Shown here piece by piece: positions 4,698-43,029 of a DNA stretch of 57,729 nucleotides. Source of the stretch: Methanococcoides sp. (lineage in GTDB: Archaea > Halobacteriota > Methanosarcinia > Methanosarcinales > Methanosarcinaceae); assembly GCA_021108275.1 (NCBI GenBank), contig JAIORD010000026.1:1-57729 (forward strand). The letters are read 5' to 3'. The notes under the pieces were generated by a model. The model saw only the letters and a program-made list of their open reading frames with translations. It was not told the DNA's origin and did no database searches. How positions within the stretch are numbered: position 1 is the first letter of the stretch; each line of letters begins with the position of its first letter. The position numbers and the translations under genes are program-made.

Positions 4698-4787
4698 CGA
4701 ATATAAGTTGAGCTTTCAAATTGTCAGAGATAAATCTCAGACACTTTTTTAGAACCGAATGAAAGGATCACAGAATTGAAATTATAT

Positions 4788-4824
4788 TAAAAAAAAGAAT
4801 TGATACTCGCATAATGCGAGTATC
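4788..4824 (-). terminator. Terminator of the rpl1-rplP0-rpl12 operon
   Basis: On the minus strand the perfect 10-bp stem GATACTCGCA/TGCGAGTATC (3-base loop, 4802-4824) is followed by ATTCTTTTTTTT, 15-50 bases past the rpl12 stop. It marks the end of the ribosomal operon. Confidence 0.85.
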
Positions 4825-4838
4825 GGTTTGAAAATAGC

Positions 4839-5138
4839 TTAGCCAAAGAGTGCGCCGAGACCAGCCATGCCGCTCTCTTCTTCTTCTTCTTTTTCTTCTT
4901 CTGCAGGTGCTTCCTCAGCTGCTGCTGCTACTGGAGCTGCTGCTGCTGCTGCTGCTGGTGCGAATGCTGCGGTTGCCATTGCTTCCTCGATATCTACATC
5001 TTCGAGTGCTGCAACAAGTGCCCTTGCGCGTGATTCGTTAACTTCTGTGCCTGCTGCAGAGAGTACTGCGGAGACTGATTCTTCTGTGATGTCTTTACCT
5101 GCGTTGTGCAATAATAGTGCTGCGTATATGTATTCCAT
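4839..5138 (-). CDS. rpl12: Ribosomal protein P1 (archaeal L12)
   Basis: 99 residues. The N-terminal helical dimerisation domain ([20 protein letters not shown]) is followed by an Ala-rich hinge at about 59-75, an acidic Glu/Lys stretch, and the conserved end GLGALFG. Several dimers bind the C-terminus of P0 and form the ribosomal stalk that recruits translation GTPases. An AAGGTGA precedes the ATG. It is the last gene of the L1-P0-P1 operon. The C-terminal tail is almost the same as that of P0 next door, as expected for the factor-binding tail. Confidence 0.97.
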
Positions 5139-5182
5139 TGTAATTCACCTTTTAGTTATTAATATTATATTTAATAGTTAGT

Positions 5183-6202
5183 TTATCCAAAGAGTGCTCC
5201 AAGACCGGACGCCATGTCGCTTTCTTCTTCTTCTTCTTTGACTTCTTCCTGCTCTTCAACAACTTCCTCGACTGCTGCTCCAGCAGCTGCAGCAGAACTT
5301 GCTGCACCGAGTGCTTCCTTTAGCTCATCGTCAAGAGCATCATCATTGGAGGATGCTGCTGAAGCGATCGCCATCATCTTGCTGTATGCCTTACCAAGCA
5401 GAATATCCATGATTCCTGGCTCGTAAACTGTAGCATTGACTGCAACGTTCCTTGAATCGGATGCCGCCTTAGCAAGCAATGTGTTGATGTTCATAGCAGT
5501 TGGATATGCTGCATTGACAGACATATTGAATGCCTGCTGAGCTGCTTGTACGAAGTTGGAGAATACCTGTTCCTCATCGATAGCAAGTACATCAGGAGTG
5601 AAGATAGAACCTTCTTCCAGAACTGCCCTAAGATCAAGACCGACTTCAAGTGGATAAATCTCCAACCTTGTCAGCATAGATGCAAGTTTCTGAGATACAA
5701 CCTCGCCGGCCTTTGCAACAGCCTTTGTTTCCTTGATGACAACCTTTCCGCCATCAATAGCTGCAGGAATACCTGCACCCTGCATGTCACCAAGTATAGG
5801 ACCTGGTGGGAAGCTTGTTGGGCCTGCCTCTACAATAATGTCGCTAGTAGCTACCATTCCCGCTTTAATAGGGGAAGGAGTCTTACTTTTCTCAAGCAAC
5901 TTGTAGAGTTTGAAAGGGTTCTGTTTTGTGAATATGAGTGCAGTCTGCACATCAACATAATCATCCATCTTCTTGACATCATCAGATGACTGGTCAAGTG
6001 CCCTTCTTGTTAGAGTGTTTCTGCAAACTTTAAGGACTGCAAAGTCCTTTAGGTCCCTTCTCATTGACTGAAGTTGCTTTGCAGGAATTCCTTCAATACC
6101 AATAACACCAAATAATGGATATGATTCAATGAGGCTCTTAATTTCCTCGATCTCATCTTTCTTCCATTGAGGAATGTGTTCACTGTGGTGAAGTTCTCCC
6201 AT
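5183..6202 (-). CDS. rplP0: Ribosomal protein P0 (archaeal L10)
   Basis: 339 residues, normal for the archaeal protein. The N-terminal rRNA-binding L10 domain (HSEHIPQWKKDEIEEIKSLI onward) is followed by the archaeal/eukaryotic insertion, P1-binding spine helices, and an Ala hinge with an acidic tail ending MASGLGALFG. It anchors the P1 dimers on 23S rRNA next to L11. Its ATG overlaps the TAA of rpl1 by one base (TAATG), so translation is coupled. Confidence 0.97.
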   Translation of the reverse strand: MGELHHSEHIPQWKKDEIEEIKSLIESYPLFGVIGIEGIPAKQLQSMRRDLKDFAVLKVCRNTLTRRALDQSSDDVKKMDDYVDVQTALIFTKQNPFKLYKLLEKSKTPSPIKAGMVATSDIIVEAGPTSFPPGPILGDMQGAGIPAAIDGGKVVIKETKAVAKAGEVVSQKLASMLTRLEIYPLEVGLDLRAVLEEGSIFTPDVLAIDEEQVFSNFVQAAQQAFNMSVNAAYPTAMNINTLLAKAASDSRNVAVNATVYEPGIMDILLGKAYSKMMAIASAASSNDDALDDELKEALGAASSAAAAGAAVEEVVEEQEEVKEEEEESDMASGLGALFG

Positions 6203-6843
6203 TATACCAACCTCACAGAATTACCCATAGTAGTTGTAACATAGACTGATTTAAGGTTGTGTTTACCTTTCTCAAGAGAATGTTCAACTCTAACAAGAAC
6301 TGTTTCGATGTTCTCTGCAAGTTTCTCGACAGCCATGTCCCTGCGACCAACTGACACGTGGAAGGTCAATTTATCCTTTGATCGGATACGTATTGAGTTC
6401 TTTGTGCTGTTTATAAGATCAGCAACGTTCCTGTCAGGGGTCAATGGCACAGGCATCTTTCCGCGAGGACCAAGAATAGCACCAAGGGCTTTACCGATCT
6501 GAGCCATATACTGGACTTCTGCGATAAAGAAATCACACTCGTTTGCGAGACTTCTTGCCTTTGATTTATCCTCGCCGAGCTCCTTGATGTCCTCTTCTGT
6601 AAGGACATAGTCACAGCCAGCGTCCTTTGCGTTGAGTCCAACCTCACCCTTTGCAAAAACAGCGATCTTCATGGTCTTACCAAGGCCGTTAGGAAGGATT
6701 ATCTCCTCATCCACACGATTCTTAGGCTGACTCATATCGAGATTCTTTAAGTTAATTGCGAGATCCAAGCTCTCGGAGAACTTACGTTCCGGGGAACCTT
6801 CAATTAACTGTTTTACTAGATCTAAAGTAGTTTCTTCTACCAT
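6202..6843 (-). CDS. rpl1: Ribosomal protein L1
   Basis: 213 residues from ATG 6843. This start gives the usual archaeal length (MVEETTLDLVKQLIEG) and is preceded by a strong GGGAGGA; an upstream in-frame start would add 26 residues unlike the family. The two-domain L1 fold is indicated by GPRGKMPVPLTPD and by SIRIRSKDKLTFHVSVG. L1 binds the mobile stalk of 23S rRNA; in methanococci it also represses its own operon by binding its mRNA. First gene of L1-P0-P1, preceded by a long hairpin-rich leader. Confidence 0.96.
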   Translation of the reverse strand: MVEETTLDLVKQLIEGSPERKFSESLDLAINLKNLDMSQPKNRVDEEIILPNGLGKTMKIAVFAKGEVGLNAKDAGCDYVLTEEDIKELGEDKSKARSLANECDFFIAEVQYMAQIGKALGAILGPRGKMPVPLTPDRNVADLINSTKNSIRIRSKDKLTFHVSVGRRDMAVEKLAENIETVLVRVEHSLEKGKHNLKSVYVTTTMGNSVRLV

Positions 6844-7016
6844 TCTATTCCTCCCGTAGTTTTTGAACATGTGTTCTGATACAGATATTATCTGCATCCG
6901 GTAGGCACGCAATAATTGCATACCAGCCCATACGGCCGCTCCGGCCTACTACGGTAAAGTAAGGAGATTTTCATCTCAATTACGAAGCTTCAATATTGAA
7001 GCATATGTTTAAAACT
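6844..7016 (-). promoter_or_regulatory. Promoter and structured leader of the L1-P0-P1 operon
   Basis: On the minus strand TTTTAAACATATG (about 7003-7016) is a likely TATA box. The perfect 16-base palindrome GCTTCAATATTGAAGC (6987-7002) lies just downstream, near the expected transcription start. About 140 untranslated bases follow with several possible hairpins: GAGAT-GAAA-ATCTC, GGCCG-GAG-CGGCC, GCAAT-T-ATTGC and a longer-range TAGGC/GCCTA pairing. L1 is a known autoregulator in methanogens, so a binding site here or in the early coding region is plausible; I did not identify the exact L1 motif. Confidence 0.55.
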
Positions 7017-7017
7017 T

Positions 7018-7089
7018 GTCGGTCAGCCAAAAGACTGACCAACTTGTTTGAATTTGATATAGATATCAAAGAGATACTAGTATCTCTTT
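7018..7089 (-). terminator. Three consecutive inverted repeats after rpl11
   Basis: Directly after the rpl11 stop come a perfect 22-base palindrome (7068-7089), the 8-bp stem TTTGATAT/ATATCAAA with a two-base loop (7053-7070, sharing three bases), and a 9-bp stem around GGTCAG/CTGACC (7018-7043). Together they probably form the end of the rpl11 transcript. None is followed by a long T run, so an RNA-processing or attenuation role is also possible. Confidence 0.5.
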
Positions 7090-7091
7090 AA

Positions 7092-7577
7092 TTACCATGC
7101 TTCTGCTGCGAGAGACTCGTCGAACTTGCCCTCATCAACAGCTTTCTGGCATTCCCTTGGATCAAGGTCTTCAATCGTTACACCCATAGGAACACAGGTT
7201 CCCATGACTTCCTTGATTGCAGCCTTAAGCGAATAGGAAAGAATATCGTCTTTCTTCATGCGTGCGATCTTTGCGACCTGTGCGATCACAAGATTGCCGA
7301 CAACAACGGTACCGGATTCTCCGGAACCCTTCTCGATGTTAAGTTCCTTAAGGATCAATGCGGATGTTGGTGGAGTACCCACTTCGATCTCAACACTCTT
7401 ATCGTCATTAACGATAACCTTAACAGGAACCTGCATCCCATTGTAATCTTTTGTCTTTTCATTGATCTTTTCGATCACGTCTTTAATATTAACACCAAGA
7501 GGTCCTAACGCAGGGCCCAGTGGAGGACCAGGATTTGCTTTACCGCCAGGAACCAATGCTTCTACTACACTTGCCAT
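7092..7577 (-). CDS. rpl11: Ribosomal protein L11
   Basis: 161 residues. The motif [14 protein letters not shown] at about 16-29 and [13 protein letters not shown] are hallmarks of L11, which binds the GTPase-associated centre of 23S rRNA beside the P0/P1 stalk. An AGGTG precedes the ATG. The gap of 77 bases from spt5 contains TTTATAAA and a 17-base near-palindrome (TGAATAGA/TCTATTCA), so rpl11 may have its own promoter besides read-through from spt5. It is separated from rpl1 by 248 bases. Confidence 0.96.
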
Positions 7578-7654
7578 TCGAGCAACACCTTTTTAAATTT
7601 TATAAATTAATTAAATAAGTTTATAGATTAGATCTATGAATAGAATCTATTCAC

Positions 7655-8119
7655 TCAGGAATTTGTTTCCTCTTTCCTAAGTATCCGTACAGTATCACCA
7701 CGAATAGTTATAGGTATTGGTACGACTGCATCGAACAGTTCCACAGTGATCTCTTCATGGCCTTCATCAACACGCTTCACACGTGCCTTTTCGCCCTTGA
7801 AAGGACCAGAGGTCACTTCGATGATAGCACCTTCCACAATACCTGTAACGGTTGGCTTTGGCGTAAGGAAATGTTCGATCTCCGCTATACTGGACTGACC
7901 TTTTACAACAGTCCTTGCATGAGGAACTGTCTGGATCGCCTGTTCAACGGCTCCGGAATCGGAAGATTCCAGAAGTACATAACCTTTGAGCTCATCAGGA
8001 GCAATTATTGACCTGATATCAAGATTATCCTTCTTTGCAACCTGAGCCAGCATAGCAGCAACCGAACGTTCCTGATTTGCAGTTGTCTTTACAACAAATA
8101 TAGCGGCATCTTCACCCAT
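7655..8119 (-). CDS. spt5: Transcription elongation factor Spt5 (NusG homologue)
   Basis: 154 residues: NGN domain (IFVVKTTANQERSVAAML) over roughly the first 90 residues, then a KOW motif (VEGAIIEVTSGPFKGEKARVKRV). With Spt4 it clamps RNA polymerase onto DNA and increases processivity; the KOW can contact the ribosome. It starts 4 bases after the secE stop and lies upstream of rpl11, the order seen in many euryarchaea. Confidence 0.95.
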   Translation of the reverse strand: MGEDAAIFVVKTTANQERSVAAMLAQVAKKDNLDIRSIIAPDELKGYVLLESSDSGAVEQAIQTVPHARTVVKGQSSIAEIEHFLTPKPTVTGIVEGAIIEVTSGPFKGEKARVKRVDEGHEEITVELFDAVVPIPITIRGDTVRILRKEETNS

Positions 8120-8123
8120 AAAA

Positions 8124-8321
8124 TTACACCCACTGTGGAACTACGGTCAACAGCACATAAATAAGGAAACCAACAAGGCCTATCACAAGAATTCCGGCAC
8201 CAGCGACCTTAGCGATCATGAGGAATTCCTCTCTGGAAGGCTTCTTGGATAATTTCAGTACCCTAAGATATGACTTAAGGACCTGAACGACATTGCGGTT
8301 TATCTTAGCCGATTTTAACAT
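8124..8321 (-). CDS. secE: Preprotein translocase subunit SecE/Sss1
   Basis: 65 residues from ATG 8321, the usual archaeal SecE size. An amphipathic helix (RVLKLSKKPSREEFLMIAKVAG) leads into one transmembrane helix (GILVIGLVGFLIYVLLTVV). SecE clamps the SecY channel in the cytoplasmic membrane. A longer frame opens upstream, but it adds 22 hydrophobic residues foreign to the family. The ribosome binding site (GCAGAG) is weak. It lies between ftsZ and spt5. Confidence 0.88.
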   Translation of the reverse strand: MLKSAKINRNVVQVLKSYLRVLKLSKKPSREEFLMIAKVAGAGILVIGLVGFLIYVLLTVVPQWV

Positions 8322-8515
8322 ATTCTCTGCCAAACTTTTCACAACCAGTTTTAGTATTATTGATATGTACGAGTTGATACGATACAATTCATCAACGATC
8401 GATCCGACTAAAAATTTAGTGGCTTTAAAACACCGTACTAAATAAAATACCTTTCGATTGAACAGCGTCGTATCATACAGAACAAATTAAAAAGATAAGG
8501 AGATAGATCCCCTGA

Positions 8516-9622
8516 TCATTTTACGAAATCGATCCCGTATTTCCGCGTAACGTTCTTGGAGTTCCCACTTCCATAGATCTGTGGGGACCTCACACCAGTA
8601 ACGACAAGCATAGTACGCACTGCATTTTCAAGATCAGGGTCCACCTGGGCACCCCAAATCAACCTTGCATTCGGATCGATCCTGCTATATACTTCCTGAA
8701 CAACGCTCTCAGCCTCTGCGATAGTCATATCCGGACCACCGACCACATTCACAAGAGCAGATGTCGCACCGGAGATGTCCACATCAAGAAGTGGACTCCT
8801 TAATGCTTTCTGAACAGACTCAACGGCCTTGTTCTCACCATCAGCCTCACCAAGACCTATCATTGCAACGCCACCGTTTTGCATAACGGTCCGTACATCA
8901 GCAAAATCAAGGTTCACAAGACCCGGTTTTGTAATAAGCTCTGTAATGCCTTTCACAGCCCTCATCAGAACCTCATCGGAAACCTTGAACGCTGCCTGCA
9001 ATGGCAACCTTGGAACAACCTCAAGAAGTTTATCGTTCGGAACGACAATGACAGTATCAGCGACATCCCTGAGCCTTTCAAGACCTGCTTCTGCGTTCTC
9101 ACGCCTTACATGCCCCTCTACGGAGAATGGAAGAGTGACCACAGCGATCGTCAAAGCACCAGCATCCCTTGCAGCCTCTGCGACAACTGGAGCGGAACCT
9201 GTTCCGGTACCGCCACCAAGGCCTGCAGTAATGAACACCATATCGGAGCCATCCACTATCGAACGCACCTCATCGATGCTCTCAAGTGCAGCATCCTCAC
9301 CGATCTGAGGCAGACTACCTGCACCAAGACCCCTTGTCTTCTTCTTACCAATAAGGATCTTCCTTTCGGTAGTAACATTCAGGAGATGCTGAGCATCCGT
9401 GTTCACAGCAACGACTTCAGCACCTTTGATGCCTTCCTGTTGCATACGCTGAGCGCTGTTCGAACCCCCTCCGCCACATCCTACAACCTTGATGTTAGTC
9501 TGCAGATCTTTCAGCATTGCCTCAAGTTCCGCATTAACATTATCAGATTGTGAAACGTCGCTGGAATGGATTTGCGTCTCTTCTACAGATCGAGCTAATG
9601 CCTCTTCTACTATGGATTTCAT
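8516..9622 (-). CDS. ftsZ: Cell division protein FtsZ (tubulin-like GTPase)
   Basis: 368 residues. GTP-binding signature [11 protein letters not shown]-terminal loop [10 protein letters not shown] and T7-loop region [11 protein letters not shown] are present, so polymerisation-coupled GTP hydrolysis should be intact. About 35 variable N-terminal residues precede the core. The position in front of secE-spt5-rpl11 matches archaeal FtsZ1. A strong GGAGG sits seven bases before ATG 9622, and CTATATAT about 60 bases upstream can act as TATA box. A gap of about 190 bases before secE has no gene. Confidence 0.95.
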
Positions 9623-9713
9623 AATATATCCTCCACTATAGCAACATGATCAAATGTATGGAATATTGATATTCGTAATATATAGAGATTAGTATTATAT
9701 TTATCTACATCGT

Positions 9714-11153
9714 TTAAAGGATGTCATTCCTTAAAACAAGACTCTTCCGTGTCCCCTCATAGACCATTTCTGGCCGGATAGTATTTCCTTCGACCATAAC
9801 TGACTGACCTTTTGCCAGTTTCCCAAACATAGGACCGGAAGGAACTCCACACTTTCGCGCAAGTTCAGGACTGAATCTCTCAATTGTAATATGCAACACA
9901 TTTTCTTCGAAAACATATTCAGTATCATAACGCCCTTTTAGTATTTTAATGCATTCATCTACAATAAAGGAAAGGAAGTCCTCTGCATCACGATTCCAGA
10001 AAGTATAGAAATGATTTGATATTGTTGCATCATCGCGTTCCGAATAGACAACATTCGACGTATTAAGCAACCTTTTCACACCACCTACATCAACAGACCG
10101 TACCAATTTGAGAAGTTCATTGTCAACTACAACAGTAACAACATTAGACACATCGAACTCAAAAATATCGCAAGCATTCTCACTCAACTTATCTTTCATC
10201 CCAGCAGGGACCTTAACCCGCCCGGAAAGACCCTCATCCCGAACCTTATGCCAAAATATCCTGAAAACATCCCAGCAGACCCCATCCATCTCTTTGATGT
10301 CACTTTCCCTCAATACCTCAAGCCCACATTCATCTGCAAGCACATTGATCCGATTCTTCTCCTCAGATGACATCGCCTTCCTGTCACAATACACAAGATC
10401 TGTACCCGACCTCTCAACTGCCTTCCTGAACATATCCCCATCAACAAATTGAAGCTGATAGTTCGGGAAATTATGACCGAACGAAACATCCGAGCCCAGA
10501 ACGATCCCGGATTGTCTTGCAGCGTAGTGCCCACCCCCAAATCCAAGAGCCACAGGACAACTTCCAGGCCTCACGGAAAGGATAGAACGTGCAACGACCT
10601 CCCCTGCATCCCGATCGACCCACTCGACCCCAGAACTACCTATCTCCGCATAGACCGAAGGAACATCAAGGTCAGAAGGTCCATGATGAGTGGACTCCAT
10701 TGAAACATCGAAACCGATGCCATCCGACAGCTCGGCCATATTCCTAAGCAAGCAGCGGAGCGCGAACGGAGCAGCCTTAGAAAGCTCACCAGGATACCCA
10801 CCAAAATCAGCAGAACCTGGATTCCCCGTAAAGTGTGCGGTCAAAAGCCGCCTGCCATCAGCACTTTTATGTTTGGAAGCGAAAATGAGAAGATCGCATG
10901 GCAAACCTGCCTCTTTGATCTTCCTGTCGATCCCATCCTGATAGACATGATGTTCAGTAACCTCGACAATATGAAAATTCCCACTCCGATACACCGCAGA
11001 AAGATCATCAAAGATACCATCTGGAACACTCATTTCGACCCAATCTCTGAGCTTTAGCAAATGCTCTTTTATATTCTGACTTGCCGGGTCCACAGTAGAA
11101 CAAACTATAACAATACTCATACCAGCGATCTGAACCTCATTATCTTCTGTCAT
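9714..11153 (-). CDS. dtdA: D-aminoacyl-tRNA deacylase, archaeal type
   Basis: 479 residues. The sequence MSIVIVCSTVDPASQNI, FASKHKSADGRRLLTAHFTGNPG and ALGFGGGHYAARQS are typical of archaeal/plant DtdA (former DUF516), a zinc enzyme that removes D-amino acids from mischarged tRNA. The deacylase core fills roughly the first 270 residues; the rest is a less conserved extension that ends in a segment probably engaging tRNA. Start ATG 11153 is chosen because GGAG stands eight bases upstream; a later ATG at 11120 (MSIVIV) is possible. Confidence 0.88.
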   Translation of the reverse strand: MTEDNEVQIAGMSIVIVCSTVDPASQNIKEHLLKLRDWVEMSVPDGIFDDLSAVYRSGNFHIVEVTEHHVYQDGIDRKIKEAGLPCDLLIFASKHKSADGRRLLTAHFTGNPGSADFGGYPGELSKAAPFALRCLLRNMAELSDGIGFDVSMESTHHGPSDLDVPSVYAEIGSSGVEWVDRDAGEVVARSILSVRPGSCPVALGFGGGHYAARQSGIVLGSDVSFGHNFPNYQLQFVDGDMFRKAVERSGTDLVYCDRKAMSSEEKNRINVLADECGLEVLRESDIKEMDGVCWDVFRIFWHKVRDEGLSGRVKVPAGMKDKLSENACDIFEFDVSNVVTVVVDNELLKLVRSVDVGGVKRLLNTSNVVYSERDDATISNHFYTFWNRDAEDFLSFIVDECIKILKGRYDTEYVFEENVLHITIERFSPELARKCGVPSGPMFGKLAKGQSVMVEGNTIRPEMVYEGTRKSLVLRNDIL

Positions 11154-11276
11154 AAAAATAACTCCAATACACAATATTTTATTAACTCTTTTTCACTTCA
11201 TAGGTCTTCACGAACGAACACCCATCCCATTAAGAAATGATAATTAATGGACTCTCACAATATTTCTGAAACATTA

Positions 11277-12071
11277 TCACTCTTTGACCATGTCGAACGC
11301 CCAACGGCTAATACTCGGCGCAATATTTCCACACCTTCGATGTTCAACAACATCAAGCCCCATATCAGAATACCCTTCCACCAATCCCTCTATTTGAGAT
11401 CGTTTCTTAAAAGTATAAAAATGAACATTCCCACCCTTTCTCACAAAAGGTAACAACTTCTCAAGAAAACCATCCATTCCATAAGGAGTGGGAATAATCG
11501 CACGGTCGAGCCGAGCCTTAAGAAAACTGCCAATGTCCGATGCATCCCCCAGAATGGGATGAATGTTCTCACCAACTTGGTTCAACCGCACATTCTCAAA
11601 AAGCCACCTACATGCATGAGGGTTCTTTTCAATTGCAACCACTTTTGCACCCTTTGCTGCAGCAGGTATAGCAAAAGGACCAATGCCACAGAACGGAACA
11701 ATGACATCTTCACCTGCTCTCACTTTTGAGGACACCCTCTGCCTTTCGAACGCAAGCCTCCCGTTAAAGAAAACGTCACGCAGGTCCATCCTATAACTGA
11801 AACCAAACTCTTCATGAGTGGTGACCGGAGCGTCCCCCAACAAGACCTCGAACCCGGCAACCCGATGCTCACCTTCAAGTCTGGTGATCTTATTGAGCAC
11901 TCCCCGAATATTCCCCCTCATTGAAGCGATATGTTCTGCCACAGGTAATTTGTAAAGCTCCAGCTCAGCAGGAACCGAAACGACCGCAATATCTCCGACA
12001 ATATCGAATCGCTTGGGAACCTGACCAAGAAGCTCTTCAGGAATGCCAGCTATTTTTTGGACCATGCTCAT
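11277..12071 (-). CDS. Trm5/TYW2-family SAM-dependent tRNA methyltransferase-like protein
   Basis: 264 residues from ATG 12071, which has GGTGG eleven bases upstream; a GTG at 12086 overlaps that site and is less likely. The N-terminal part resembles the D2 region of Trm5 (PKRFDIVGDIAVVSVP), followed by a Rossmann fold with SAM loop PFCGIGPFAIPAAAKGAKVVAIEKNP. Trm5 and TYW2 act on G37 of tRNA-Phe. The usual Asn-Leu-Pro motif after strand 4 is replaced by IIPTPYG, so this is a divergent member whose substrate cannot be fixed. It follows the ALDH gene on the same strand by 25 bases. Confidence 0.75.
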   Translation of the reverse strand: MSMVQKIAGIPEELLGQVPKRFDIVGDIAVVSVPAELELYKLPVAEHIASMRGNIRGVLNKITRLEGEHRVAGFEVLLGDAPVTTHEEFGFSYRMDLRDVFFNGRLAFERQRVSSKVRAGEDVIVPFCGIGPFAIPAAAKGAKVVAIEKNPHACRWLFENVRLNQVGENIHPILGDASDIGSFLKARLDRAIIPTPYGMDGFLEKLLPFVRKGGNVHFYTFKKRSQIEGLVEGYSDMGLDVVEHRRCGNIAPSISRWAFDMVKE

Positions 12072-12096
12072 TGAATGAATATCCACCTGCAGTTTA

Positions 12097-13461
12097 TTAA
12101 AACAACACAGTAGACCTGACGTTCATGAATTCATAGAACCCGAATCGAGAGAGTTCCCTCCCAATGCCACTTTTCTTGACCCCGCCAAACGGCAGGTCAG
12201 CTTCCGGTTTGAAAAAACCATTCACCCCAACTACCCCGGACTCTACCTTAGACGCAAGGAATGACGCATTCTCCTTATCGCTGCACCAGATACTTGCGCC
12301 CAGACCAAACTCTGTGGCGTTGGCAACCTTCAGAGCTTCCAGCCCATCCTCCACTGAGATTATCGGGGCCACCGGACCAAACGTTTCCTCCTTCATGACC
12401 TGCATATCAAGAGAAACGTTAGAAAGCACCACAGGAGAGAAATAATACCCATCGCCCTCCATCCTACCGCCTTCAAGTTCCACTTTTGCACCCATCGAAA
12501 CGGCATTCTTTATCTGGCCTTCGAGCAATGAGACCTGCCCCTCACGTACAAGAGGACCAATATCTGTTTCCTTGTCTAGAGGGTCGCCTATTTTGAGCTT
12601 ACGTGTGTATCCCACAAATGCAGAAGTGAACTCATCGACCACGGAACTTTCAATGATGAAACGTTTGGAAGAGATACATGTCTGTCCGGAATTGAGGAAC
12701 CTCCCGGCAACCCCTGCCTTCGCAGCCTTTTCAATGTCTGCGTCCTCCAGCACAATGAAAGGGTCGCTTCCTCCGAGTTCCAGCACACATTTCTTAATGT
12801 TGCGACCGGCGACCTCAGCAACCTTCTGGCCGGCAGGCAAACCCCCTGTAAAGGATACCGCTGCGACCTCCGGCCTTGAGATCAATGAAGAAGCAGTGGG
12901 TCCATCCACAAGAAGGGTCTGGAAAACACCTTCAGGAAATCCGGCCTTCTCAAAAACTGATTCGATCTTAAGCGCACACATGGGAACATAACCGGAGTGT
13001 TTTAGCACCATGGTGTTCCCGCCTGCAAGAATATGGGAAGCAGCACTCAATACCTGCCAGAGAGGGAAGTTCCAGGGTTTGATGGCAAGCACTACCCCCA
13101 TTGGCTCGTAGGAGATAAAGGAGGAAGGACTCTCCTTCACAATATCAGGCTCAAGGAAAGAACAGATATTAGCAGCAAAGTGGTCGAACATGCTGGCACA
13201 TTTCTCAACCTCTGCAAGTGCCTGCCTTATAGGCTTCCCCATCTCCATGGTAATGGTCTCTGCCAGATCCTGTTTATCGTTTCGAAGCACCTTTACAACA
13301 TTTTCAAGATACACAGCCCTTTCAGCACCCTCCAGAGATCTCCAGTACTGGAATGCTTCGCTCGATCTTTTAAGAATAAGGTCTACCTTATCAGGAGAAT
13401 GAAATTCGAATTCACCATTAACAGTCCCATTTGCAGGATTGATCGATGTTATTTTTTTCAT
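12097..13461 (-). CDS. NAD(P)-dependent aldehyde dehydrogenase (succinate-semialdehyde type)
   Basis: 454 residues, slightly short for the superfamily. Visible are the Pro-Trp-Asn oxyanion region (AIKPWNFPLWQ), the nucleotide site SFTGGLPAG, the general base in LELGGSDPFIV and the nucleophile in NSGQTCISSKR. It oxidises an aldehyde to an acid; best general resemblance is to the GabD group, but the substrate is uncertain. Its stop lies 25 bases before the Trm5-like gene, so the two are probably co-transcribed. Confidence 0.88.
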   Translation of the reverse strand: MKKITSINPANGTVNGEFEFHSPDKVDLILKRSSEAFQYWRSLEGAERAVYLENVVKVLRNDKQDLAETITMEMGKPIRQALAEVEKCASMFDHFAANICSFLEPDIVKESPSSFISYEPMGVVLAIKPWNFPLWQVLSAASHILAGGNTMVLKHSGYVPMCALKIESVFEKAGFPEGVFQTLLVDGPTASSLISRPEVAAVSFTGGLPAGQKVAEVAGRNIKKCVLELGGSDPFIVLEDADIEKAAKAGVAGRFLNSGQTCISSKRFIIESSVVDEFTSAFVGYTRKLKIGDPLDKETDIGPLVREGQVSLLEGQIKNAVSMGAKVELEGGRMEGDGYYFSPVVLSNVSLDMQVMKEETFGPVAPIISVEDGLEALKVANATEFGLGASIWCSDKENASFLASKVESGVVGVNGFFKPEADLPFGGVKKSGIGRELSRFGFYEFMNVRSTVLF

Positions 13462-13553
13462 GGAGGATAGTTAATTCTGATTTGATTTAAATAAGTGGGA
13501 TGGAAGCTAACATTTAAATATGAGATTACTGATTAGAGGGCGGAGGTACTTAG

Positions 13554-13967
13554 TTGATCAATATCCCATATAGGCCACTTTCCGCAGCTAGATAGGCATT
13601 AGCGATCTGGATGGTCGGTTTTATCTGGGAGAGCATAGTGCACATTACACCTGCGCTTTCAGCGATCCCATCAATAGAATATATCTCAAAAACACCTGCT
13701 ATAGCTTTACCTCTACTCGTAATCCTGCCGATCCTTACAATATATCTCACAAAGACATATCTCAAGGATACAAAGGACAAAGTCGAAGAAGCAAAATTGC
13801 TTGGCATCACATTTCTTAGTGTGAATCTGGCACTTGACCTTGCGATGTACCTGATGATATACGACAAAAGTTACCTCCCATATCTCTTGATATGGATACA
13901 CTACGCATTGTTACTGGCAATTCCTTACTATATAGGAAAACGCATTCAGGCATCGGAAATGGCATAA
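13554..13967 (+). CDS. Small membrane protein with in-frame TAG, candidate pyrrolysine protein
   Basis: A perfect GGAGGT stands six bases before a TTG at 13554. This frame runs 13 codons (MINIPYRPLSAAR), meets TAG at 13593-13595, and continues in the same frame for 123 codons to TAA. Reading TAG as pyrrolysine gives 137 residues with about four transmembrane segments, the first being ALAIWMVGFIWESIVHI right after the TAG. A TATA-like TTTAAATA lies about 40 bases before the TTG. Without read-through, translation would have to begin at ATG 13611, which has no good ribosome binding site and cuts into the first helix. The family is not recognised. A nonsense mutation in a decaying gene is the main alternative. 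Confidence 0.55.
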
Positions 13968-14007
13968 AGCGAATACATATAAATGCCTTCACTTCAAATA
14001 TATTGAT

Positions 14008-14934
14008 ATGCAGCAATTACTTGATACTGCGGAAAAGATTCGCACGATGGAAATAAGGGGAGCCGGAAGGATAGCTGAAGCAGCATCTGCAGCCCTTCGT
14101 GATTATGTGCTCGGGATTAAAGTGACGAACATCAAGGACTTTAATAAAAAGGTAGATGAAGCTGCCAGCATACTTATCCAGACCAGGCCCACAGCAGTAT
14201 CCCTCCCGAATGCAGTCCAGCTTACAAAGCGCCACACTGCGACCGAAGTATCAGAAGCAAGGGAAGAGATTCTCCGTAACGCTGACAAGTTCCTGGAACA
14301 GGCAGGCAAGGCCCTTGAGAAGATGGGGGAGATCGGTGCAAAGAGGATACGCGACGGCGATGTCATAATGACACACTGCAATTCCCATGCTGCCCTTTCG
14401 GTAATAACAACCGCTTTTGAACAGGGTAAGGACATATCCGTCATTGCCACAGAATCAAGACCAAGAAGGCAGGGCCTCATTACCATAAAGGAACTTAACG
14501 ATCATGGCATCCCAACCACGCTGATCGTGGATTCCGCAGTAAGATATTGTATGAAGGATGTTGACACCGTAATAGTAGGCGCTGATGCAATAACCATCAA
14601 CGGTGCACTCGTGAACAAAGTGGGTACATCCCAGCTTGCACTTGCTGCAAATGAGGCAAGGAAGAACCTCTTGTGTGTGGCAGAGACTTTCAAGTTCAGC
14701 CCGAAGACCATCTATGGAGATCTTATCGATATTGAGGAAAGGTCACCGGAAGAGGTTATCGACACCGAGGTTCTTGCAGGAATGCCAAATGTGAAGGTCA
14801 AAAATCCCGCATTCGACATAACCCCTGCAGAGTATATTGACATGATAATAACAGAGGTAGGTGCATTCCCGCCACAGATGGCCTACACCATCATCAAAGA
14901 GCACCTCGGATGGGAATTTACAAAAATGGGATGA
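14008..14934 (+). CDS. Ribose-1,5-bisphosphate isomerase (eIF2B-related)
   Basis: 308 residues. The eIF2B alpha/MtnA fold is seen throughout; the active-site Cys (THCNSH, C124) and Asp (VGADAITING, D193) are 69 residues apart, as I recall for the Thermococcus R15P isomerase. The enzyme converts ribose 1,5-bisphosphate to ribulose 1,5-bisphosphate in the archaeal AMP pathway, feeding type III Rubisco. The ATG follows CATATAAATG (a TATA box) by only about 30 bases, so the mRNA is probably leaderless. It shares no operon with its neighbours. Confidence 0.92.
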   Translation: MQQLLDTAEKIRTMEIRGAGRIAEAASAALRDYVLGIKVTNIKDFNKKVDEAASILIQTRPTAVSLPNAVQLTKRHTATEVSEAREEILRNADKFLEQAGKALEKMGEIGAKRIRDGDVIMTHCNSHAALSVITTAFEQGKDISVIATESRPRRQGLITIKELNDHGIPTTLIVDSAVRYCMKDVDTVIVGADAITINGALVNKVGTSQLALAANEARKNLLCVAETFKFSPKTIYGDLIDIEERSPEEVIDTEVLAGMPNVKVKNPAFDITPAEYIDMIITEVGAFPPQMAYTIIKEHLGWEFTKMG

Positions 14935-14941
14935 AAAGGTG

Positions 14942-14964
14942 AAAGGTCTCAAAGGAGACCTTTT
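14942..14964 (+). terminator. Hairpin terminator between converging genes
   Basis: AAAGGTCTC-AAAG-GAGACCTTT (9-bp stem) followed by a T, just after the isomerase stop. It overlaps the last codons of the converging membrane-protein gene. Confidence 0.7.
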
Positions 14965-15710
14965 ACATCATTATCGATTGACTGTTTAGCCTCATCCAGT
15001 TCATCAACGAACTTAAGCCCGGTATCATCAAGCTTTTCTGAAACTGCAGACCAGAGGAGCTCATAGCTCGAGCCTTCTTCCACACCCAAATCAGCATTCT
15101 TCCTGTTAGCTGTTTCAAATATCTGTTCCTTAAGGTCTTTCCTATATCGTTCTATATCACGTGAGAACTCATCCCTTAGCTTGTCCACCTGCCCAACTAC
15201 CCTCCTTTGAGTAGAACGGATACCTATAGAAGAAAGATAACTTGTCCAGGTAGCTCCAATAACAAATGACTCTAAAAAATTGGACACGCCTTCAGAAATG
15301 AACGTGATATTTACCTGACCGGAAAGAAGGGTTCCAAATACGCCGCCCAGAACAATATAAAAAAAGAATCCGAGCCCGCGAGAGAGGAGCTGACCATTCT
15401 TTATCTCCTTTTCCAGAACATGCAAACGGACCCTTTCAGCTTCTACTTCCGTCAGATAGCTTTCCAATACCCCGGACAGGACCTGTGCATCATCGGATAA
15501 CGAAGCAGAACTCAATCGATCCTGCAAAGAATCTATGTCCGACTCGGTTTTCTCTATATGCTTGCGATGTCTGCGAGCTTCTCTTTGCATATCAGAAATA
15601 TCATAAAGAGGACGGAATTCAGGAATGGCCACATCCTTGGATATATAAACCAGCAATAGAGCACCAAACGCACCAAAAAGGAACGTTCCGAACTGAGCAC
15701 CTTCCAACAT
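14949..15710 (-). CDS. Membrane protein with coiled coils, unknown function
   Basis: 253 residues. One helix at the N-terminus (FGTFLFGAFGALLLVYI), a long heptad-rich stretch at about 40-120 (QREARRHRKHIEKTESDIDSL), two more hydrophobic helices around 125-165, then a second charged helical region. No catalytic motif. It lies 26 bases downstream of sppA on the same strand, so a shared transcript and an envelope role with SppA are plausible but not shown. Confidence 0.65.
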   Translation of the reverse strand: MLEGAQFGTFLFGAFGALLLVYISKDVAIPEFRPLYDISDMQREARRHRKHIEKTESDIDSLQDRLSSASLSDDAQVLSGVLESYLTEVEAERVRLHVLEKEIKNGQLLSRGLGFFFYIVLGGVFGTLLSGQVNITFISEGVSNFLESFVIGATWTSYLSSIGIRSTQRRVVGQVDKLRDEFSRDIERYRKDLKEQIFETANRKNADLGVEEGSSYELLWSAVSEKLDDTGLKFVDELDEAKQSIDNDVKGLL

Positions 15711-15736
15711 CCATATCCCCCAGAGATGAACTTACA

Positions 15737-16969
15737 TCATTCGATCAAATATCCCACCGGACTTTCAGTATAATAACTCGCTAGCTGCTCTGCAGCCTGT
15801 GAGGACATCGTTTCTTCCGAACCGAACAGTATGCTTGAAAGAGATGGTTTGTTAATATAATAGACCACAGGTTCACCCTCGATACCACCAAGTTCAGCCG
15901 CTGCATCAATGGCATCATAGAAATTACCAAGCTCATCCACAAGCCCGAGCTTCTGTGCTTCCTTACCAATGTAGATACGACCATCTGCAATATCTTTCAC
16001 TTCACCCTTTGTCATATTACGGTTTTCAGCAACACTGGTAACGAACAGATCATAGACATCAAGCACAACATTATCCACATATTCTTTCTCCTCAGGAGTA
16101 AGTCCCCTCCAATCGCCACCCACGTCCTTGAATGAACCCGATTTGGAGACATAGAACTCAATACCTTCTTCATCGTAGTACGCAGACCTATTTGTGTAGA
16201 CACTGATGACACCGATACTTCCAGTGGTCGTGGAAGGATTTGCAACAATGAGATCCGCAGGTGCAGAGATATAATATGCAGCACTCGCCGCCACGTCACC
16301 CATGGAGATGACCACAGGGATACCCATATCCTGCACTCTCTTGATCTCAGTGACTATCTCTTCTGCGGCCACAGGGGATCCACCACCGCTATTTACTCTA
16401 AGTACAATGGCTTTTACACTATCGTCCTCGGTTGCTTTACGCAGACTGTTACAGACATCTTCAGAAGTAGCATAACCAAAGCCAGAGGGGAGGTTTCCTG
16501 TCAGCATGAAACCCTGCACATAGATAACTGCGACCCTCTCATCGGTAGTATAGAGGTCCCCGCCGAATGACAGATAGATAACTGCGAAACTGCCGCCTAT
16601 AATTAACATCAGTACTGAGATGACCGCAATATATTGCCATTTGCGGTCCTTCTTTTCAGGAGTTGCGTGCTGGGGCGGTTCCCTGGATGACATCGGTTCA
16701 TTTCCATATGGAACCCTTTTATCCCCCATATCTACGTAAGGGACCTTCTTCAAAGTACCAGCATCCGAGGGTTCGGAAGTATCCACAACAACATTATCCA
16801 CTGAGCCCCCTTGCTCATGAACATTGTCCAGTATCTCCGTATATTCAGGCTCCGGCGAATATTCCAATGCACCAAGATCGGGAGTTCCCAATACGGATTC
16901 TTCAAGGAGCTCTTCCATAAGCTCATTTTTATCCTCATTCTCATTTTTTGGATCTGTGTTATAGCTCAT
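15737..16969 (-). CDS. sppA: Signal peptide peptidase SppA (family S49)
   Basis: 410 residues. A long acidic cytoplasmic region (about 1-125) precedes one transmembrane helix (WQYIAVISVLMLIIGGSFAVI) and an S49 domain. The nucleophile is in ISMGDVAASAAYYIS and the catalytic Lys is probably in VSKSGSFKDVG. The enzyme degrades leftover signal peptides in the membrane with the active site outside. The acidic N-terminal extension is longer than in bacterial short forms. Divergent from metG, sharing the 16970-17101 promoter region. Confidence 0.92.
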   Translation of the reverse strand: MSYNTDPKNENEDKNELMEELLEESVLGTPDLGALEYSPEPEYTEILDNVHEQGGSVDNVVVDTSEPSDAGTLKKVPYVDMGDKRVPYGNEPMSSREPPQHATPEKKDRKWQYIAVISVLMLIIGGSFAVIYLSFGGDLYTTDERVAVIYVQGFMLTGNLPSGFGYATSEDVCNSLRKATEDDSVKAIVLRVNSGGGSPVAAEEIVTEIKRVQDMGIPVVISMGDVAASAAYYISAPADLIVANPSTTTGSIGVISVYTNRSAYYDEEGIEFYVSKSGSFKDVGGDWRGLTPEEKEYVDNVVLDVYDLFVTSVAENRNMTKGEVKDIADGRIYIGKEAQKLGLVDELGNFYDAIDAAAELGGIEGEPVVYYINKPSLSSILFGSEETMSSQAAEQLASYYTESPVGYLIE

Positions 16970-17101
16970 CCAACACCTCTAATATATATTGTAAATTGTA
17001 CCTGACCATTCAAAAAGCTTCTCTTATGGACACATATAAGCGAAATATATTTTATGATTGCACACTATGCAAAAGAAAACTAATGATCATGGAGACCAAT
17101 A

Positions 17102-19156
17102 ATGTCCAAATTCCCATCAGAGAAACCAGTTCTTGTCACATGCGGACTGCCTTATGCCAATGGAAAAGCGCATGTAGGTCATTTGCGCACATATGTTCCC
17201 GCAGACATATTCACAAGGTCCTTAAAAAAGACAGGACAGGAAGTCACATTCGTTTGTGGTTCCGATACACACGGAACTCCCATAGTGTTCAATGCAGAGG
17301 AACTTAAAACGACGCCTACCGAGATCATAAAGGTATATCACAAACACTTCGATGAGACCTTCAAGAAAATGGGGGTCATGTTCGATGCATTCGGCACCAC
17401 AGATGATCCCACCAACCATAACCGTACAACCGAAATAGTGAGCAAACTCATAGAGAACGGTTATGTTTACCCAAAGACCATCGAGATAGCATACTGCCCT
17501 TCCTGCGACCGTTCCCTTCCGGACAGGTACGTAAAGGGAACATGCCCTCACTGCAAAAAAGAAGCAAGAGGAGACGAATGCGACCAGGGGTGTGGAAAAC
17601 ATCTTGAACCGGGAGAACTTGAACATCCCGCCTGTACCACATGCAACGGACCTGCTGAATATAAACAACAAGAGCATTTCTTCTTCAAGCTTTCACAGTT
17701 CAAGGATTTCCTTTTGGAACATCTTGAAGGGCTTGGCGGAACCCTCAATGCAAGAAATTATGCCCTCGGCTGGGTAAAGCAGGAACTTACAGACTGGTGC
17801 ATCACAAGGAGTCTCGACTGGGGCATCAAATTCCCGGGACATGATGACCTTGTGGTTTACGTATGGGTGGATGCACCTATCGGATACATCGCATTCACAG
17901 AAGAATGGGCAGAAGCAAATAATGAGAGCTGGGAGAAGTTCTGGAAAGATGATGGAAGTATCATCCACTTCATCGGCGGGGATATCATCTATCACCACTG
18001 CATCTTCTGGCCTGCAATGCTCAAAGGTGCCGGATATAATCAGCCGGATGCGGTCGTCGCTTCAGGAATGGTAAAGATCGAGGACAGGACATTCTCCAAG
18101 AGCCGCGGATATGTTGTCTGGGTGGACGAGGATTACCTTGACCACGGATTCCATCAGGACCTGCTACGTTACTATCTTGCAAGCTATACCTCACATACAA
18201 AGGAGCTCAATTTCTCATGGAAAGTGTTCCAGGACAAGGTCAACACCGAACTTGTAGGTGTTTTCGGGAATTTCCTGTACAGGACACTGCTTTTCACACA
18301 CAAGAACTTCGGAGAGATACCTGAAGGAGAAGTAAAACAGGAGATCCTTGACGAGATCAACACGACCATTGAGAATGCAAAGGATGCCATGGAGAACTAC
18401 GAGTTCAAGAAATATGCTGACACTGTAATGGCACTCGCTTCATACGGAAACACATATTTCCAATCTAATGAACCCTGGAAGCTCATAAAAGAGAGCAAGG
18501 AAGCATGCGGAGAAGTTGTCAAGAACTGTGCCCAGATCACAAAAGCGCTCTGTCTGCTCTTTGAGCCCATACTTCCTGAAAAGATGGAAGAGGCATGGAA
18601 ACAGATAGGCATGACAACAGACGTCCATGAAACAAATTATACCGAAGCCACTGAACTCGTAAAGAGTGGAACCACACTTGAAAAACCATCCATCCTCTTT
18701 GAGAAGATAGAAGATGAGAAGACCGAAGAGATGGAAGCCATATCTGCTGCAAGGGTAAAGGAAGCAATTGCAAAGGAAAGTGGCACAGAAGAAGTAGAAG
18801 AAGTTAAGAAAATAGAGGAGATGAAAGATTTGATCACATTCGACGATTTCTCAAAAATGGACATACGCATTGGAACCATAGTATCCGCTGAAGCTATCAA
18901 AAAATCAAAGAAATTACTAAAACTCCAGGTGGACCTTGGAGAAGAGGAAACTCGCCAGATAGTTGCAGGCTTAAAAGAATCACATGAGTCTGAACAGCTT
19001 ATAGGAAAACAGGTCGCAGTCCTCACAAATCTTGCACCTGCAAAACTTTGCGGTGTCGAGTCCAATGGAATGGTACTTGCGGGAGTGGATGCTGCGGATA
19101 ACGCAATCCTCCTGCAGCCGGAAAAGGAAACTAACCCGGGCACCTGCATACACTGA
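17102..19156 (+). CDS. metG: Methionyl-tRNA synthetase with C-terminal tRNA-binding domain
   Basis: 684 residues. HIGH-type motif ([13 protein letters not shown]), zinc knuckles (CPSCDRSLP and [17 protein letters not shown]), a KMSKS variant (TFSKSRG) and an anticodon-binding helical domain are present. After a charged linker at about 540-570 comes an EMAPII-like tRNA-binding domain ([18 protein letters not shown] to the end), often a separate protein in other archaea. It charges tRNA-Met for initiation and elongation. GGAG is nine bases before the ATG. Confidence 0.97.
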
Positions 19157-19163
19157 GAAAATG

Positions 19164-19179
19164 AGGGGGACTTCCCCCT
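19164..19179 (+). terminator. GC-rich hairpin after metG
   Basis: AGGGGG-ACTT-CCCCCT, 6-bp stem eight bases past the metG stop, between converging genes; no long T run follows. Confidence 0.5.
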
Positions 19180-19196
19180 TAACGAATAATAATTAA

Positions 19197-19712
19197 TTAG
19201 TCCATCAGCATCTCAAGATAAGAAGTCCTGATGGAATCCTCTTTTTTTGACCCGATCATCTCAAGGAAGGCGAAGAGCTTTTCCCTGTGAGCCTCGATGT
19301 CTGAATCCGCAACAAGTTCAACTTCCACGAACTCTCCGAGACCTTCGACATTATCAAAACAGATAGTTATGTCGTCGTATTTGTAGATATCACGCGTCTT
19401 CTTCACGACACCTGACTCAAAAAAACCAAGTGCATTGAGGATACCCCGGGCGGCCACTCCATCCACAGGGGTCTCAAATTCCTCCCGCGTCTTGGAAATC
19501 TCGTCCAGTTTCTTACCCTTATAGGTCATGCGTGTGCCACCATCGACACTACGCAGCCTCAATGCTTCGTCCGTTTTGGCAAAATCACGATGAGGTGAAT
19601 TGTAGTACACATCAACGTGATCTTCCGTACGAACTTTTTGCGCACCGAGCTTTACGGCCCTGTCCTTTAAAGGGGCATGTTCGGCGCGCACTTTTATTTC
19701 AATTTCGATCAT
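19197..19712 (-). CDS. CYTH-domain protein (class IV adenylate cyclase/triphosphatase family)
   Basis: 171 residues. The N-terminal ExExK motif (IEIEIKVRA) and the following Arg/Lys/Glu strands (EALRLRSV, RMTYKGKK, VEVELVAD) form the triphosphate tunnel of CYTH enzymes. Such proteins hydrolyse or cyclise triphosphorylated substrates with divalent metal; the archaeal group is often labelled CyaB, but cAMP synthesis is not established. Its start lies inside the last codons of the DUF35 gene (14-base overlap), so it is the last gene of the thiolase/HMG-CoA synthase operon. Confidence 0.88.
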   Translation of the reverse strand: MIEIEIKVRAEHAPLKDRAVKLGAQKVRTEDHVDVYYNSPHRDFAKTDEALRLRSVDGGTRMTYKGKKLDEISKTREEFETPVDGVAARGILNALGFFESGVVKKTRDIYKYDDITICFDNVEGLGEFVEVELVADSDIEAHREKLFAFLEMIGSKKEDSIRTSYLEMLMD

Positions 19713-20100
19713 TATCCGGGACGTACTTCGTTCCGTAATAGATCATACCCTTGTCACCGCTCTCGCCGAGCTTTCTGAACACAGGCTTGACCCTCATACC
19801 AATGGAAACTTCCTTAGGATCACAAACCACCTGACTGGTGAACCTTGGACCTTCATCCAGTTCGATAATTGCAAGCGCATATGGTGCCTGCATTTCAAAT
19901 CCTTCTGCTGCGGTGTGGATTATAGTATAGGTCACTACATTGCCCGGACCAGCGAACTTGTAAGCCTCGATATCACCATCACGCCTGCATTTCGGACAAA
20001 CGTTTCGTGGTGGATAGTAGTGTGTATCACAGGTCTTGCAGTGAGTTCCCACAATATTGTACCTGTTGATCTGCTTTCTCCAGAATCTTGCTACAGACAT
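19699..20100 (-). CDS. DUF35 zinc-ribbon/OB-fold protein of the thiolase-HMGCS complex
   Basis: 133 residues. N-terminal helix (MSVARFWRKQINRYNIVG), rubredoxin-like zinc ribbon with CKTC and CPKC, then an OB fold (GNVVTYTIIHTAAEG). In methanogens this protein bridges acetoacetyl-CoA thiolase and HMG-CoA synthase and lets the intermediate pass directly between them. Gene order HMGCS-thiolase-DUF35 with tiny gaps (6 bases to the thiolase) fits that complex. The four zinc cysteines look intact. Confidence 0.92.
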   Translation of the reverse strand: MSVARFWRKQINRYNIVGTHCKTCDTHYYPPRNVCPKCRRDGDIEAYKFAGPGNVVTYTIIHTAAEGFEMQAPYALAIIELDEGPRFTSQVVCDPKEVSIGMRVKPVFRKLGESGDKGMIYYGTKYVPDNDRN

Positions 20101-20106
20101 TCTTAA

Positions 20107-21279
20107 TCACCTCTTCCTCGATAAGATGTTTACAACTGCTGTCGCGCCGGATCCTCCGACATTATGGGTCATTCCGACCTCTGCGCCATCGACCTGACGA
20201 GGACCTGAATCTCCACGAAGTTGCTGTGTGACCTCTACGAGCTGTTTGATACCAGTAGCACCGACCGGATGACCACATGATTTCAGGCCACCGGAAGTGT
20301 TCACAGGGATCTTTCCGCCAATAGCAGTCTCACCATCTTCGGTCATCTTACCGCCCAGACCTTTCTTCACAAAGCCAAGGTCTTCGATAGCACATATCTC
20401 TGCAATCGTGAAACAGTCGTGAACCTCCACAAGATCGATGTCTGCAGGGGTCATCTTCGCCATCTCATAAGCACGCTTTCCTGCAGATACGGATGCATCC
20501 AGTGTTGTGATGTCACGGCGGTCATGCAAAGCAATTGTATCGCTTGCCTGTGCTGTCGCCTTCACATAGATAGGAGTGTCAGTGTACTCGTGTGCAATAT
20601 CCGCAGGAGCAAGTACCAATGCTGATGCACCGTCTGTAATAGGTGAACAATCGAATATGTGCAATGGGTCAGCCACCATGATGGAATTAAGGACATTGTC
20701 TATGGTGATACGATTCTTGTACTGTGCGATCGGGTTCATTGATCCATTCTGGTGGTTCTTCACAGCAACTGCCGCAAGCTGTTCGCTTGTGGTCCCATAC
20801 TGATGCATGTGCATCTTTGCTATCATTGCATAAAGACCCGGGAATGTCGCACCCATGATGCCTTCCCATTCACGGTCTGCTGCTGCTGCCAGTGCTGCTG
20901 AAGCTGCCGTTGATGAAACATCGGTCATCTTCTCCACACCTGCTGCCATCACAAGGTCCTCGTGACCAGAAGCTACTGCCATTACAGCCTGCCTGAACGC
21001 AAGACCGCCTGAAGCACATGCTGCCTCGACACGTGTGGATGGAATGTGAAGGTCCAGGGAAAGACCGGAATAATCAGCTATCAGGGCACCAATGTGCTCC
21101 TGTTCTACAAACTGTCCTCCGCTCATGTTACCAACGTACATGCCGTCCAGTTTTTCACCGGATATGCCGGAATCCTCAATAGCTCCGACACCTGCTTCGA
21201 CAACGATGTCCCTGAAGGATCTATCCCACATCTCACCGAAATTTGTGTTCTTAACACCAATAATTGCTACGTCTCTCAT
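20107..21279 (-). CDS. Acetoacetyl-CoA thiolase (archaeal, SCP-x-like)
   Basis: 390 residues from ATG 21279, chosen because GAGGGTG stands just upstream; an ATG at 21297 would overlap the HMGCS gene further. The nucleophilic Cys is in [14 protein letters not shown], and the C-terminal catalytic His is in [11 protein letters not shown] with VHDCF before it. It condenses two acetyl-CoA to acetoacetyl-CoA, an unfavourable step pulled forward by coupling to HMG-CoA synthase. First step toward mevalonate for archaeal membrane lipids. Confidence 0.93.
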
Positions 21280-21289
21280 ATCAACACCC

Positions 21290-22339
21290 TCATGCAAGCC
21301 TTATCTTACCTTTGTGTTTGGCATACATTGCATAATCCATGTACACCGGATCTTTCAAAAGTTCTTGAACCTTTGGCGCAGCATCACGGACCTCATCGAT
21401 CTTGTCGGTCACTCTGAAACTGAACGCATCTCCGCCTGCACCGGAACCGAATGCCGTTGCAAATATCCTGTCACCCGGTTTTGCCTGGTCGAGTGTTGCG
21501 GCAATACCCATCATACATGAACCGGAATATGTGTTCCCAAGCCATGGAACTACCAGACCGGGCTTGATCTGTTCTTTAGTGAATCCCAGCATCTTTGCCA
21601 CCCTTGAAGGGAATTTCCCATTTGGCTGGTGGAAAACAGCATAGTCATAATCAGAAGGTTTTGTACCCATCTTTTCCATCAGACCGTTTGCAGCTCCGGT
21701 CACATGCTTGAAATAACCAGGCTCACCTGTGAACCTGCCGCCGTGTTCCGGATATGGCATACCTTCACGTCTCCAGAAATCAGGAGTGTCGGTGGTAAAG
21801 GAGAATGTGTCTTCGATAACTGCGATCATCTCAGATTCCTTGTTACCGATAATAAAGGATACACCACCTGCTGCTGCAGTATATTCCAGTGCATCTCCCG
21901 GAGCGCCCTGAGATACATCGGCACCTATGGCCATCCCAAGGTCAACCATTCCGCTACCGACCAGTCCCATACATGCCTGCATAGCTGCAGTGCCTGCCTT
22001 ACATGCGAACTCGAAATCCGCAGCGGTCAGCGCAGGAGTTGCTTCAATAGCTTCGGCAACGATCGTACTGGTAGGTTTTACAGCATAAGGGTGACTTTCA
22101 GAACCCGTATAAACGGCCCCTATACGCTTAGCATCTATATTGTGACGTGAAACCGCAGATCTTGCAGCTTCCACTGCAATGGTCGCAGTATCCTCATCAA
22201 GGTCAGGAACTGATTTTTCATATACCATCAGACCTGCACTGAGAATATCCGCATCATCTCCCCATACGCGGGCAATATCTTCTACTTTTATCCTGAATTT
22301 GGGGATATAAGCACCGTAAGAAACAATTCCTACACTCAT
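21290..22339 (-). CDS. mvaS: Hydroxymethylglutaryl-CoA synthase
   Basis: 349 residues. Active-site Glu ([14 protein letters not shown], about E81), Cys ([13 protein letters not shown]113) and His ([12 protein letters not shown]) are in place. It adds acetyl-CoA to acetoacetyl-CoA giving HMG-CoA, the precursor of mevalonate. It is the first enzyme gene of the minus-strand operon; the thiolase starts 10 bases after its stop, and the regulator gene lies 56 bases upstream. Confidence 0.95.
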
Positions 22340-22395
22340 TAATCATTCACCTGTTTATATGTTCAAGTTTTTCAAAATCGATCACAAAGCGATCA

Positions 22396-23136: not shown

Positions 23137-23162
23137 GCTTCAATAAACTGTATGAGTGTCAC

Positions 23163-23202
23163 ACATATATATGTACCGAACGTTCGTTCGACAATTGTCG
23201 AA
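23163..23202. promoter_or_regulatory. Palindrome cluster in the regulator/Cas4-like divergent promoter
   Basis: Three adjoining perfect palindromes: ACATATATATGT (23163-23174), CGAACGTTCG (23177-23186) and TTCGACAATTGTCGAA (23187-23202). The first overlaps the probable TATA region of the minus-strand regulator; the other two share the half-site TTCG(A/T) and look like operator sites. A plus-strand TATA (TTTATAAAATG, near 23229) for the Cas4-like gene lies just to the right. Confidence 0.6.
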
Positions 23203-23258
23203 TAAAACCAATTATATGGTTCAAGTATTTATAAAATGCCGATAATCTGTTATAAACC

Positions 23259-42877: not shown

Positions 42878-43029
42878 TTTACCTCATTTACTAAAATACA
42901 GCAATCCTATCGATAACAACATCGATGTATAACTGATAACACCTATTATAACAATTACATACTATTAAATACTGTGCCGATATTTCAAATTTGCACTACA
43001 TAGATATTTTGGGTACAGGGAGAATTATA

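Follow-up and report, generated by a model that had tools for sequence, protein, structure and literature searches.

The DNA analysed here, a stretch of 57,729 nucleotides from Methanococcoides sp. (assembly GCA_021108275.1, contig JAIORD010000026.1; referred to as the window), belongs to G000, a 2.67-Mb genome of that genus in which it is contig 18. It contains a small gene whose frame opens with a TTG and is interrupted at codon 14 by TAG, after which 123 sense codons follow before a TAA (13965-13967). A preliminary description of the sequence had proposed that this gene encodes a pyrrolysine-containing membrane protein, and the elements on which it relied (ribosome binding site, TTG, TAG and the open codons) are all present (Table 1). 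The frame translates into (M)INIPYRPLSAAR, the TAG, and then ALAIWMVGF...; hydropathy predicts four membrane segments. The comparative evidence makes it highly probable that the TAG is decoded as pyrrolysine (Pyl), giving a 137-residue four-helix membrane protein that starts at the TTG.

The gene was found between aldehyde dehydrogenase-like and isomerase genes in seven of the eleven Methanococcoides genomes, and it was not found in the other four. Codon 14 is TAG in G000, in M. alaskense DSM 17273 (G002) and in M. seepicolus LLY (G009), TAC in a Methanococcoides metagenome-assembled genome (MAG; G003), and TAT in M. vulcani SLH 33 (G004), in G005 and in G006, which is probably M. burtonii. 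Across all Methanococcoides orthologues, the start codon (TTG or ATG), the ribosome site and the first 13 codons can be aligned, and Leu16, Ile18 and Trp19 are invariant among them. GGAGGT is identical in G002, G003 and G009, and reads GGAGGT/AGAGGT in G004/G005. The G006 copy is broken by two TAA codons and one frameshift, and its ribosome site is degraded to TGAGTT. The TAG-bearing copies are free of any other stop or frameshift. Fourteen distant homologues come from a Methanoperedens MAG, an acidobacterial MAG and genera g4, g8 and g14 of the same family. In them the TAG column, situated where transmembrane helix 1 begins, is occupied by Tyr (12 of 14) or Phe (2 of 14); none of these homologues outside Methanococcoides has a TAG there. 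The preliminary description had named an alignment of orthologues as a check on its proposal, and this alignment bears it out: the N-terminal 13 codons are common property, an aromatic residue occupies the TAG column in the relatives, and none of them starts at the equivalent of ATG 13611, an in-frame codon downstream of the TAG.

A second check, for the pyl genes, also came out in favour, with pylT, pylS, pylB, pylC and pylD all found in the genome. ARAGORN detected tRNA-Pyl with the anticodon CTA (L030:12854-12925) directly before pylS, and open reading frames (ORFs) for pylB, pylC and pylD, named from their order and sequence, follow directly after pylS in one cluster. pylS occurs in all 11 congeners. 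Each of two mtmB genes of G000 has one in-frame TAG, which fits the use of TAG as Pyl in this genome. G000 also encodes two further MtmB homologues without TAG (L058 and L059, on contigs 5 and 7); a non-pyrrolysine MtmB homologue of M. methylutens is linked to the use of tetramethylammonium and choline (PMC13044021).

We next consider how TAG is used elsewhere in G000, counted over the window and 20 further stretches (~457 kb together). Coding-like genes in this sample end in TAG in eight cases, in TAA in 135 and in TGA in 189. A coding-like in-frame extension lies beyond the stop in five of the eight TAG-ended genes as against 27 of the 324 ending in TAA or TGA (Fisher p=2.8e-4), and in those five genes it spans 86-141 coding-like codons. 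In these five, a Pfam domain extends across the TAG, namely HATPase_c in the three that encode histidine kinases, and SLFN_AlbA_2 or SfsA in the other two. Because TAG-ended genes run on and domains span the codon, TAG serves mainly as a sense codon in G000. It can still stop translation, as exemplified by pylB (L030:14291-15352), which ends in TAG immediately before pylC and is followed by 42 in-frame codons that are not coding-like; a pylB ending in TAG has been described for M. mazei, M. acetivorans and M. burtonii (PMC2933860). Within the window, the claim that only one complete gene ends in TAG holds: that at 42991-43908 (305 aa) is convincing, and a second ORF with this ending (4867-5181) is not coding-like.

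Several of these genes are worth recording in their own right. The three histidine kinases (L044:15288-17543, L038:3246-5183 and L049:3960-5747, on G000 contigs 2, 1 and 4) have one in-frame TAG each. It lies inside HATPase_c, shortly beyond an FTPExG motif and at almost identical positions in the three, and the domain continues on its far side. One in-frame TAG inside a Pfam domain is likewise found in each of the genes for SfsA, a GmrSD/Schlafen-AlbA protein and an RNA-binding PF01877 protein (Table 1).

Selection on the membrane-protein frame was assessed with a pairwise codon model. Between the TAG-bearing G000 and G002, omega is 0.19 (p=1.3e-5), and it remains at 0.20 (p=3.8e-5) when only codons 15-137 are compared; the frame is thus under purifying selection between two species that both carry the TAG. 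In simulations, the chance of 123 neutral codons gaining no stop in three lineages was ~0.001-0.05, with indels not counted. Given the same TAG codon in three species, the purifying selection and this low neutral survival, the combination of TAG and open frame exceeds chance.

Some observations weigh against decoding of the TAG. Four congeners lack the gene and a fifth has a broken copy, so it is dispensable. Comparisons involving G009 are weaker overall (omega 0.50-0.77, not always significant), with 0.50 for G000-G009 (p=0.019) and 0.66 for G002-G009 (p=0.18). The 13 codons before the TAG offer too little sequence for a powerful test, and an ATG lies closely 3' of the TAG in all three TAG-bearing species, where reinitiation would be possible. 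Dispensability and the weak selection seen with G009 would suit a gene in which TAG is a nonsense mutation and which is heading towards loss, as in G006. We consider such a pseudogene very improbable, because the same TAG recurs in three species in otherwise undamaged copies, omega is low between two of them, neutral survival of the frame is rare even before indels are counted, and the ribosome site, degraded in the truly broken G006 copy, is retained in the intact and TAG-bearing ones.

The nearby ATG would matter if the TAG terminated a 13-codon leader and ribosomes made the membrane protein by reinitiating, or initiating independently, at ATG 13611, or at the codon 17 ATG in G009. The in-frame ATG follows the TAG by 15 bases in G000 and G002 and by 6 bases in G009, and restart close to a stop is possible without a ribosome site. 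Against this, no homologue begins there, and all hold residues before the aromatic column. The ATG at codon 20 is present also in the broken, Tyr-bearing G006 copy and is thus not tied to the TAG; its equivalent is ATA in the TAG-bearing G009 and TTT in G003. Codons 2-13 differ among the TAG-bearing species by mostly synonymous changes, though these are few.

The predicted structure bears on the same question. A first model was poor (predicted local distance difference test, pLDDT, 56), and one built with three distant homologues added reached pLDDT 78 and a predicted template modelling score of 0.75. It is all-helical, and helix 1 comprises residues 8-31. The preliminary description had this helix begin just after the TAG; in the model the TAG residue instead lies inside it, in the first turns. 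As that description did state, ATG 13611 lacks a ribosome site and truncates the helix: a start there would cost the protein residues 1-19 and thereby half of helix 1, with the invariant Leu16, Ile18 and Trp19 among the losses. Hence initiation downstream of the TAG seems to us quite unlikely. ATG 13611 is not the sole alternative start, as had been claimed, since GTG 13638 is also in frame, though far too late to be plausible.

The protein has no named family or known fold. Pfam and NCBIfam gave sub-threshold matches only, and the best hit in a search of PDB folds had E 0.19, with no similar solved structure. DUF7318 (PF24002) scored 15.5-16 bits, under its curated cut-off of 27 bits, and SxtJ (PF19588), with a best E of 0.0015, matched two of nine members, the target not among them; both were rejected. 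A plasmid search returned no match to the gene.

If Pyl is indeed incorporated, translation would proceed from TTG 13554 through the TAG by means of pyrrolysyl-tRNA(CUA), with no signal required, and would make pyrrolysine residue 14, within the first turns of helix 1, of a protein presumably located in the membrane. The RNA fold of the 100 bases 3' of the TAG is somewhat more stable than those of shuffles (z=-2.24), which proves nothing by itself about a structure like PYLIS (pyrrolysine insertion sequence); such a structure after the TAG is not essential (PMC2933860). The same source reports that UAG in an M. acetivorans reporter gene was read at ~20-30%. In the present gene, some ribosomes probably halt at the TAG and release a 13-residue peptide; with such partial stopping, more charged tRNA-Pyl should mean greater output. 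That Pyl in place of the near-invariant aromatic residue serves a purpose of its own, as a membrane-interface residue at the helix start or as a translational switch responding to pyrrolysine supply, strikes us as unlikely. The TAG might also be read by a near-cognate tRNA such as Tyr-tRNA, which would insert the ancestral residue, one base away, and restore the family consensus. This we regard as extremely improbable, as G000 has a dedicated CUA tRNA-Pyl along with the matching synthetase, and these should prevail over misreading. The pseudogene, the reinitiation and the near-cognate readings each fit worse than decoding as Pyl.

The TAG would have originated within Methanococcoides by a single base change from a Tyr codon (TAT or TAC). 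Since TAG serves mainly as a sense codon in G000, the change was presumably tolerated, and the TAG would then have been retained in at least three species. The isomerase-gene tree alone groups the three TAG species, whereas the Tyr-bearing G003 falls among them in the trees of the membrane-protein gene and of 14 concatenated neighbours. Neighbouring genes (window 4000-24000, L069-L074) yield conflicting trees for G000, G002, G003, G006 and G009, a pattern suggestive of recombination between the species. Since the gene trees conflict, the TAG may have arisen by a single gain with recombination or reversion, or by two gains.

Upstream of the gene, the TATA-box-like TTTAAATA, which may act as its promoter element, is present also in the TAG-bearing orthologues and in G003. 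In G005, a second isomerase copy, 82% identical, lies on another contig (contig 1, L021), with an apparent remnant of the 3' end of the membrane-protein gene located 5' of it.

Table 1. Features of the membrane-protein locus (window coordinates) and further TAG-interrupted genes of G000 (locus coordinates).
Feature	Position	Strand	Remarks
Membrane-protein gene, whole	13554..13967	+	137 codons + TAA, codon 14 being TAG; predicted membrane protein with four helices
Archaeal TATA-box-like TTTAAATA	13513..13520	+	~33 bases 5' of start codon; read from sequence
Ribosome binding site GGAGGT	13542..13547	+	Six bases before TTG 13554
Start codon TTG	13554..13556	+	Aligns with ATG starts of G004, G005, Methanoperedens MAG (L054) and G245
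In-frame TAG, proposed pyrrolysine codon	13593..13595	+	Residue 14, inside helix 1; orthologue alignment
Alternative in-frame ATG	13611..13613	+	No ribosome site; rejected as main start
Divergent neighbour, aldehyde dehydrogenase-like	12097..13461	-	ORF; position kept in congeners; named from sequence
Downstream neighbour, ribose-1,5-bisphosphate isomerase-like	14008..14934	+	ORF; synteny anchor in all 11 congeners; named from sequence
TAG-interrupted SfsA gene	L047:11273-12058
TAG-interrupted GmrSD/Schlafen-AlbA gene	L039:10327-12579	-
TAG-interrupted PF01877 gene	L033:14312-14752

Within a single genus, the locus offers a clean natural alternation of Tyr and TAG at a site of a small protein that is otherwise near-invariant. 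Standard gene callers would truncate such a gene or misplace its start, and together with the other TAG-containing genes of G000 it supports treating TAG as pyrrolysine genome-wide when Methanococcoides is annotated. As TAG-bearing species exist as isolates, a Pyl-for-Tyr swap in a membrane helix is testable. A genome-wide Pyl code, in which all TAG codons are read as Pyl, has reportedly been found in archaea including Methanococcoides burtonii. The predominant use of TAG as a sense codon in the sampled stretches of G000 resembles such a code. In G006, probably M. burtonii, the copy of our gene is broken, and the membrane protein is therefore not expected in that species' proteome.

Non-methyltransferase Pyl proteins are already known or predicted (PMC2933860, PMC3639795). 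The pyrrolysine-containing membrane protein that the preliminary description proposed is thus supported as an interpretation; its novelty was overstated, because ordinary genes of G000 commonly contain a TAG and neutral acquisition of Pyl outside the methyltransferases has been published. We regard the gene as a good test case and one more example of a habit already known and apparently genome-wide, with no new principle. Among the predicted Pyl gene clusters of PMC3639795 is one of histidine kinases in other Methanosarcinaceae; in those clusters, as in our gene, a TAG interrupts the reading frame and the sequence is conserved both before and after it, and the word 'membrane' does not occur in the main text of that paper. 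The methylamine methyltransferases MtmB, MtbB and MttB share the in-frame TAG, there decoded as Pyl, but in them Pyl is catalytic and the position of the TAG is conserved among isozymes, whereas here relatives have Tyr or Phe. A further parallel is Thg1, the tRNA-His guanylyltransferase of Methanosarcina acetivorans, which gained Pyl by neutral evolution (Heinemann et al. 2009, described in PMC2933860). In both cases relatives have a sense codon at the TAG site, and Pyl is not needed for the activity of Thg1; the change from Tyr to Pyl in the membrane protein was, by analogy, probably near-neutral as well. Unlike Thg1, the present case concerns a small membrane protein whose TAG is common to three species and in which Pyl incorporation is predicted from sequence.
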